A stretch of DNA of 41,725 bases from Opitutus sp. GAS368 (lineage in GTDB: Bacteria > Verrucomicrobiota > Verrucomicrobiia > Opitutales > Opitutaceae). Under the pieces are notes generated by a model. The model was not told where the DNA came from and did not search any database. It was given only the letters and a program-made list of their open reading frames with translations. Each line of letters opens with the position of its first letter. Position 1 is the stretch's first letter. The DNA lies in the NCBI GenBank assembly GCA_945903545.1, contig CAMDOO010000023.1, positions 1 through 41,725 of the forward strand, read 5' to 3'. Below, one piece after another: positions 13,398-15,261 of this stretch. The position numbers and the translations under genes were made by a program.

Positions 13398-13769
13398 ATG
13401 ACCCTCCTCTTCGTCTACGGCACGTTGAAACGCGGCGGCGAGAACCACCTCCATCTGACGGGCCAGCGCTTGGTCGGCCCGGCCGCGACGTCACCGGGCT
13501 TCACGCTCTACGGGTTGCAGGGTTTTCCCGGCATGGTGCGCGCCGCGGATGCCATGGACGGCGTGACCGGGGAACTGTGGGAGGTCGACGCGGGCTGCCT
13601 GCGCACCCTGGACATCCTCGAGGGCACCGCGGAAAAACTCTACGAACGCATGCCAATCTCGTTGCTTCCGCCCTATGCGGATCTCCCCGTGCAGACCTAC
13701 CTCTACCTCCGCAGCCTCGAGCGTCGACCGCGCGTGGGTTCGACTTGGGCCGGTAGAGCACTGCCCTAA
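13398..13769 (+). CDS. Gamma-glutamylcyclotransferase (AIG2/GGCT-like) family protein
   Basis: A 123-residue protein of the AIG2-like GGCT fold. The N-terminal FVYGTLKRGGENH is the substrate-binding YGTL loop, and the acid in LDILEGTAEKLYER matches the catalytic glutamate position. Family members release 5-oxoproline from gamma-glutamyl amines or peptides; the substrate here is unknown. It follows the PP2C gene by 86 bases filled with repeat sequence, and its stop overlaps by four bases the end of the converging dnaX extension. Confidence 0.87.
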   Translation: MTLLFVYGTLKRGGENHLHLTGQRLVGPAATSPGFTLYGLQGFPGMVRAADAMDGVTGELWEVDAGCLRTLDILEGTAEKLYERMPISLLPPYADLPVQTYLYLRSLERRPRVGSTWAGRALP

Positions 13770-14109
13770 TCCTTCAGCGTCGAGGCAGGCATCCGCTGGA
13801 CGTTGATGAATTTCACGCGGAAGAGATCGTCGAGTGCCTCCCGGACATCCTGCGGGATGCGAGCGACCATGGCATCGAGAGCAGGCAGCGGTGCATCCGG
13901 TGCCGCGGGACGCTGGGCCGCGGTCTCAGCCGCGGGCAGGTCGTCCGCGCCGACCTTGATAACTTCAAACGTGGCGGCTCCCTCCGGCCAGGGGGCGGCA
14001 TCGTCTTCACCCGGGAATGGCACCGGGGTAGACTCGGACTGGACAGCAGCGACCACCGGCGCGAGCGCGATCGGGAGGACGACGGCCAGTCGCTCCTCCA
14101 ACCGGTCAA
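13766..14109 (-). CDS. dnaX: dnaX -1-frame extension (tau-like C-terminal domain)
   Basis: An open frame of about 114 codons that lies in the -1 frame directly behind the dnaX slippery run and ends with TAG at 13766. It lacks a convincing start of its own; the first possible initiator is a TTG at 14101. Third codon positions are strongly G/C, as in the neighbouring genes, so it looks translated. The sequence is acidic and Ala/Pro-rich in the middle, then ends in a probably folded segment (ALDAMVARIPQDVREALDDLFRVKFINVQRM). If the ribosome or RNA polymerase slips on the A run, DnaX of 383 residues would be extended to about 497, comparable to a tau subunit. An independent small gene starting at the TTG is the alternative. 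Confidence 0.7.
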
Positions 14110-15261
14110 TCAGTCCTTTTTTTTTTCGTCCCCCGCCGCGGCCGGGACCTCGTCAGCGAGGGCTGCGAGCTCCTTAATCAGGCTGTCGATCGCGCGGGCG
14201 CGGCTGGCCTCGACGGCCTTAAGCAGGACGACCTCGAAATTGACCCGCTCGGCGAGCCCGAGCTTCACCCCACCCTCACCTTCGCGCAGAGCATCGAGCA
14301 TGCGCGTGAGTTGCTCGGTGGTGAGTTCGGCGCCGCCGAGGCGGCTGCTCTTGCCCGGACCGGCGATGGAATCCAGCAGCGCGTCGCGCACGAGCGCCTG
14401 CAGGTCGCCCAGCAAGCGGACCAGGTCGCGCCCGCTGGCGTCGCATTCGTCGACGATCGCCACGATCCGGCGGTGGTCGGCCGTGGCGAGCGCACCCGCG
14501 AGCTCGGCGATTTTGTCGCCGGCAACCAGGCCGTAGACATCGAGCACATCCGGCTCGGAAATCTCGGTGCCACAAAAGGAGATCATCTGATCGAGGATCG
14601 ACTGCGCGTCCCGCATCCCGCCGTCGGCGAGCCGGGCGATGCAGGCCAGTGCCTCCGGCGTGACCTTGATCTTCTCTTCCTGGGCGATGGTGGCGAGGCG
14701 GCCGACGATCAGCTCGGAGGGGATCGGGCGCAGGTCGAAGCGCTGGCAGCGCGAGAGGATCGTTGGGAGCACCTTCTGTGCCTCGGTGGTCGCAAAGACG
14801 AACTTCACATGCGGCGGCGGCTCCTCGAGCGTCTTGAGCAGCGCGTTGAACGCCGCGGTCGAGAGCATGTGTACCTCGTCGATGATGTAGACCTTGAACC
14901 GGCCCTGGGCGGGCGTGTAGCGGGCGGTGTCGCGCAGGTCGCGCACCTGGTCGACGCCGTTGTTCGAGGCGCCGTCGATCTCGATCACGTCAAGGTGGGT
15001 GCCCTCGGCGATCGAGAGGCAGGCCGGGTCCTGGGGATCGAAGTCGGCGTTGGGACCGCCGGTGCAATTGAGCGCCTTGGCAAAGATGCGGGCGGTGGAC
15101 GTCTTCCCGGTCCCGCGCGGACCGACGAAGAGATAGGCATGGGCGATGCGGCCGCGGGCGATGGCGTTGCGGAGCGTGCGCACCACATGATCCTGCCCCA
15201 CGACGTCCGCGAAGGTCTGCGGACGCCACTTGCGGGCAATGACTTGATAAGCGGTCGACAC
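14110..15261 (-). CDS. dnaX: DNA polymerase III subunit gamma/tau (unshifted gamma-like form)
   Basis: The clamp-loader ATPase DnaX, 383 residues in the unshifted frame. It starts with [26 protein letters not shown] at a GTG (15261). Walker [21 protein letters not shown], the Walker B/DExx region [54 protein letters not shown] and the domain III helical segment are complete. The zinc-binding region after Walker A is partly degraded (one C and a PACLS remain). The protein stops at TGA 14110-14112, just behind GAA AAA AAA AAG GAC. The ffs RNA gene lies directly upstream on the same strand, a synteny known from other bacteria. See the neighbouring extension and slippery-site entries for the longer form. 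Confidence 0.97.
14116..14126 (-). promoter_or_regulatory. dnaX slippery site (A10-G)
   Basis: The minus strand carries ten A then G, read in frame as GAA AAA AAA AAG, which contains the classical A AAA AAG -1 heptamer in the correct phase. The unshifted stop is two codons later. G-rich sequence lies a few bases upstream. A stem of 6+4 bp with one bulge (14074-14099) begins about 16 bases downstream. Either -1 ribosomal slippage or transcript slippage adding one A would open the extension frame. Confidence 0.75.

Follow-up and report, generated by a model that had tools for sequence, protein, structure and literature searches.

Recoding in described dnaX genes and probable recoding at the locus under study

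The tau form of DnaX joins the polymerases of the replisome together. The closest described systems are 17 dnaX genes from 12 genera that need recoding for tau, nine of them with a run of ten adenines (A10), and for these transcriptional realignment has been proposed (Antonov 2013, PMC3711429). All 17 follow one layout, in which two open reading frames (ORFs) are arranged such that the 0 frame gives gamma and a -1 change at the poly-A run gives tau; the same study takes it to point to transcriptional realignment when homologues differ in the direction of their shift. Some bacteria are described as having the roles of gamma and tau exchanged, and a single base change could bring about such an exchange (Atkins 2016, PMC5009743). 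In Thermus thermophilus, slippage has been shown on a run of at least nine adenines with near stops in both other frames, yielding two products (PMC1088944, PMC5009743), and a separate lysine tRNA reads AAG (PMC5009743). Having one lysine tRNA per codon may explain the polymerase slippage in this organism (Atkins 2016, PMC5009743). E. coli dnaX carries A AAA AAG in phase, shifts in the -1 direction and makes two products (PMC5009743, PMC3711429), while in Shigella mxiE the longer product needs transcriptional slippage (PMC1088944).

The window, i.e. the whole stretch of 41,725 nucleotides analysed here, carries on its minus strand a split dnaX gene with the following features:

14110..15261, minus strand: dnaX 0-frame ORF, the gamma form of 383 amino acids, from a GTG start at 15261 to TGA at 14112-14110 (Pfam, NCBIfam)
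14117..14126, minus strand: A10, the putative slippage run, the sole A10 found in its own genome; a run of at least nine is kept in most scored loci of the order
14106..14112, minus strand: nested stops TGATTGA, in which TGA 14112-14110 ends the 0 frame and TGA 14108-14106 ends the +1 frame
13766..14116, minus strand: tau extension of 116 codons with a TAG stop, read in the -1 frame, the only one in which the tail is found
13787..13885, minus strand: conserved C-terminal tail of DnaX, PALDAMVARIPQDVREALDDLFRVKFINVQRMP, matched by the tail profile with E 1.5e-20 in the -1 frame

This gene is a further case of the two-ORF layout of the Antonov 2013 set (PMC3711429), in which the 0 frame encodes gamma and a -1 change at poly-A leads to tau. 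Unlike in that set, the same run also occurs with +1 and with 0 arrangements in the order of the window, which is the pattern of differing shift direction named in PMC3711429. The main text of that paper names three Chlorobi, and its survey set held four Verrucomicrobia genomes, so that relatives of the window may already be included; 'opitutus' and 'coraliomargarita' are absent from the main text. In the main texts of the open-access literature, we found no publication that deals with slippage at dnaX in members of this order. What seems to be new is the retention of the run while the polarity drifts, the +1 arrangement included.

The gene resembles Thermus dnaX in its run of at least nine adenines, in the near stops in both other frames, in its two predicted products and in a separate lysine tRNA for AAG (PMC1088944, PMC5009743). 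It differs in that the Thermus DNA encodes tau unshifted, whereas the window encodes gamma unshifted, and in that slippage has been shown for Thermus, whereas here slippage, and with it the product ratio, is putative. With E. coli dnaX it shares the in-phase A AAA AAG, the -1 direction and, as predicted, the two products (PMC5009743, PMC3711429); in contrast to E. coli, the shifted product is tau and not gamma, the run is longer, no conserved stem was found and tRNA-Lys(CUU) is present. Shigella mxiE likewise needs transcriptional slippage for its longer product (PMC1088944), but it is an unrelated gene with a U run. A sequence-only reading of the window had recognised the reversed polarity relative to E. 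coli and Thermus, which is correct but has precedent (Antonov 2013; Atkins 2016).

Gene structure, tau extension and tail

Reading dnaX unshifted gives GAA AAA AAA AAG GAC TGA and a protein of 383 amino acids, with the heptamer A AAA AAG in 0-frame phase. The run is exactly ten adenines long (14126-14117, minus strand), and the 0-frame TGA lies four bases beyond it. DnaX AAA+ N-terminal domains are present in the N part, as judged by Pfam (DNA_pol3_delta2, 2.1e-43; DNAX_ATPase_lid; DNA_pol3_gamma3) and by the TIGR02397 score (420.9 bits, cut-off 250; NCBIfam dnaX_nterm, 4.4e-126). The -1 product would comprise 498 amino acids. When the number of adenines was varied by script, the frames were fused with A11 (498 amino acids) and with A8 (497 amino acids), while A9, A10, A12 and A13 all led to a stop at 383-385 amino acids. 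The split gene and the phase of the heptamer as read from the sequence alone were thus reproduced. Of the two run lengths named in that reading as fusing the frames, A11 does so and A9 gives 384 amino acids; the correct pair is A8 or A11.

Within its own genome of 3.08 Mb, the A10 is unique, and runs of at least nine adenines occur at three places. Since the sole A10 of the genome lies at the same spot throughout the family, it is not a matter of chance.

The -1 frame is open for 116 codons, close to the first estimate of about 114. Its G+C content by codon position is 0.79/0.47/0.75, compared with 0.71/0.45/0.88 in the N part. Nothing in Pfam or NCBIfam matched the extension at E up to 1. When a profile of the tail was made from family rows, the window's among them, it matched the window in one frame only. 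With an iterated profile, 146 of 172 loci of the order have a tail match at E < 1e-3, each in a single frame, and in 143 of these the tail frame is also the longest open frame; in L140, L245 and L257 another frame is open longer. Two products, the longer of them read in the shifted frame, are likely at this locus, given a tail in one frame only. Against the C-termini of other orders, the tail gives a weak match (hhalign probability 25%, E 7.8e-4).

Substitutions in the extension, counted by codon position, amount to 30/17/55 between the window and L004, 34/24/51 for L005 of the same genus, 35/35/59 for L006 and 39/51/69 for L017. These figures indicate that the extension is constrained as a protein among close relatives and that the linker is only weakly so farther out. 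The linker and C-terminal tail of tau probably bind the polymerase, a function that we infer for the tail.

The TAG stop of the extension shares four bases (13766-13769) with the end of a convergent ORF of 123 codons (13398-13769, plus strand), which we take to resemble a gamma-glutamylcyclotransferase-type protein. A plasmid search gave no match.

Retention of the run and changes of the tau frame among relatives

A protein search for dnaX matched 94 of 95 genomes, that of the window included, and 88 of these have a clear dnaX; the six weak matches (G013, G032, G037, G061, G076, G093) are probably paralogues. Of 62 scored loci in the family of the window, 61 encode the long form in the -1 frame after an A9 or A10 run, the exception being L133, in which an A11 run joins the frames; L155, L221 and L254 carry A11 as well. 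A -1 shift is required in each of the nine family genomes that consist of a single contig, and the four Opitutaceae/Opitutae records L033-L036 have A9 or A10 followed by a long -1 frame. One genome (G034, 7% contamination) has two dnaX loci on different contigs, L139 and L140, both 65% identical to the dnaX of the window and each with an A10 run and a -1-frame tail.

For the order, a table of 172 loci from 170 genomes was compiled, which covers 126 of the 181 order genomes with a search match, and for each locus we mapped the N part along with the run and open frames. Polarity was counted in 167 loci, leaving aside L014, L251 and L267 at contig ends and L168 and L169 with no assigned extension. 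The frame was called from a tail match at E < 1e-3 in 146 of these and from the open frame or a weak tail match in the other 21, of which 20 were scored by their longest open frame and L273 was placed in frame 0 on the basis of its translation. On this basis, tau lies in the -1 frame in 104 loci, in the 0 frame in 38 and in the +1 frame in 25.

A run of at least nine adenines is kept in 159 of the 167 loci. Whether the run is conserved or lost once the frames are fused had been proposed as a check in the first reading: it is kept in 128 of 129 loci that require a shift and in 31 of 38 that do not (Fisher p 1.3e-4). Since the rows are related, neither the counts nor the p-values across these loci are independent.

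A quick tree of 181 rows, including 10 outgroup rows, required at least 18 changes of polarity, and a careful tree of 92 rows (89 run-bearing, three outgroup) at least 14; both trees carry a warning of the tree tool on long branches. The careful tree kept 92 of the 181 rows, after removal of long branches, most rows of the window's family, hand-chosen near-copies, rows with a run below nine and seven of the 10 outgroups. With rows of A11 or more and L237 also set aside, at least 10 changes were obtained on 84 rows. Besides the family of the window, two polarities occur among the run-bearing rows of f8, f19, f20, f22 and f24. Some switches go along with one adenine gained or lost, as in f8 (A10 with +1, A11 with -1) and f24 (A10 with -1, A11 with 0), and in f20 the length is unchanged (A9 with both 0 and +1).

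From these data, we consider it probable that most of the order keeps the A-run while the tau frame drifts through all three states, such that the encoded frame is nearly neutral, transcript heterogeneity buffers indels and each switch may alter the tau:gamma ratio. If this is true, heterogeneous transcripts absorb single-base indels that elsewhere would destroy the gene. The order offers a natural series at a single site, with the same gene and run in three frames and a few losses, in which the importance of the tau:gamma ratio, the reason for keeping gamma and the tolerance of frameshifting indels can be tested. Automatic annotation may label such dnaX genes as truncated.

The small genomes of f6, f7, f25 and f27 are without a run of at least eight. 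In L167 and L273 (f7) and L170 (f25), from genomes of about 0.9 Mb, there is no long run and a tail-like segment is in frame, which in f7 comes after a very short linker; judging from this arrangement, the small f7 and f25 genomes may make one DnaX form.

In other orders of the same class, dnaX was matched in 94 of 96 genomes and the split layout was not seen in them. One of the 94 is cut to 191 amino acids by a contig end and the rest are open for at least 444; four of these are shorter than 500 amino acids, three near contig ends (G246, G251, G326) and one not (G330). In 25 less similar outgroup loci in which the run was inspected, the 0 frame is long throughout (492-651 amino acids), and one of them, L043, has nine adenines in a row.

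Mechanism of the frame change

The explanation that we regard as highly probable is that the dnaX of the window is a Thermus-like gene in a reversed frame arrangement, with RNA polymerase slippage on the A10 giving rise to both gamma and tau. RNA polymerase would slip on the run and produce mRNAs with differing numbers of adenines. Transcripts with A10, A9 or A12 would terminate no more than two codons past the run, yielding gamma of 383-385 amino acids, while A11 or A8 transcripts would join the frames and yield tau of 498 or 497 amino acids. Slippage of this kind would place mRNA in all three frames, and the frame encoded in the genome may then matter little, so that the tau frame could be switched often while the run and the stops in the other frames are kept. 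Because tau ties the polymerases together, a replication protein would here probably depend on slips of RNA polymerase, and it is fair to infer that slippage is essential for making tau.

If the polymerase slips, the run should be long, both other frames should be closed by stops and the frame encoded should not matter; all three are seen. Both non-tau frames end within 10 codons past the run in 145 of 158 genes, and another frame is open for more than 10 codons in the other 13; at control points, where the comparison also leaves out L172, the same double closure occurs in 10.2% (extension) and 7.6% (N part). In the family, an isoleucine codon stands among the first four codons after the run in 38 of 61 run-bearing -1 genes. 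This codon is ATT, which creates a +1-frame stop, in 32 of the 38, compared with 280 of 1446 isoleucine codons in the N parts. The +1-frame stop favours transcriptional slippage, since ribosomal -1 slippage would not need it.

The alternative that survives best, although we consider it unlikely, is E. coli-like ribosomal -1 slippage on A AAA AAG, in which the mRNA is always A10 and the ribosome makes tau. It agrees with the heptamer in phase in the window and with the A AAA AAN phase of the run end in 91 of 103 run-bearing -1 genes, and a Chlorobium candidate with E. coli-like stimulators has been mentioned (Atkins 2016, PMC5009743). Signals flanking the run also exceed control points. Upstream, Shine-Dalgarno (SD)-like 4-mers occur in 26 of 102 genes against 16% in controls, and in a narrower box of chosen spacing in 16 of 102 against 8%; above control as they are, they occur in a minority of the 102 genes, and a conserved upstream SD-like element was not found. 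Downstream, the 60 bases after the run tend towards a more stable fold than other windows of the genes (median percentile 0.28; 0.05 or lower in 17% of genes; KS p 1.2e-5). The bulged 10-bp stem pointed out in the first reading can be drawn in the window with about 10 pairs, but it is not conserved: an alignment of 12 sequences, i.e. the window and 11 hand-chosen relatives, gave a consensus of -1.95 kcal/mol with 5 pairs, one of them with changes on both sides.

Several further observations weigh against a ribosomal origin. The adenines beyond the heptamer need not have been retained, yet at least nine are present in 128 of the 129 shift-requiring loci, and the +1-frame stop is favoured. The needed frame differs between relatives, and -1 slippage cannot serve the 25 loci whose polarity is +1. 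A tRNA pattern search detected tRNA-Lys(CUU) in the window's own genome, and its AAA codons suggest a second lysine tRNA there; in 31 of 38 genomes the lysine pattern was matched, each with the CTT anticodon form and only three with the TTT form. The E. coli-type ribosomal mechanism considered in the first reading is hence the weaker option, although ribosomes could contribute to shifting at the run.

Far less probable is that the extension is a separate small protein, made by reinitiation after the gamma stop from its own TTG. The first listed start in the extension is indeed an in-frame TTG at 14101, but 47 of the 103 run-bearing -1 genes are without ATG, GTG or TTG in the first 30 codons, which speaks against the independent start named earlier as the refuting case. 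A start preceded by an SD-like motif occurs in only 7 of the 103, and 38 relatives encode N part and extension in one continuous frame, 31 of them with a tail match at E < 1e-3. A sequencing or assembly error or a decaying gene is hardly credible, even though homopolymers are error-prone and the genome of the window is in 122 contigs, because the break is identical across the scored family loci with the one exception and in all nine single-contig genomes, and both the N part and the tail are conserved.

Some other runs deserve mention besides polymerase slippage at the A10 of the window. L203 (G216) stands alone in the set in requiring a -1 shift at a short run, which there is A6 before a C; it may represent a ribosomal A AAA AAC site or an effect of the assembly. 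Runs of A10 also lie within the long 0-frame dnaX of L061, L063 and L067, from Ignavibacteriae, Deltaproteobacteria and Desulfobacterales records, and it is possible that they are independent slippage sites. One of the two other A9 runs of the window's own genome (L274, about 1242-1250, G000 contig 59) lies within an ORF of 297 codons, where it encodes PKKKR, and is either incidental or another slippage site.
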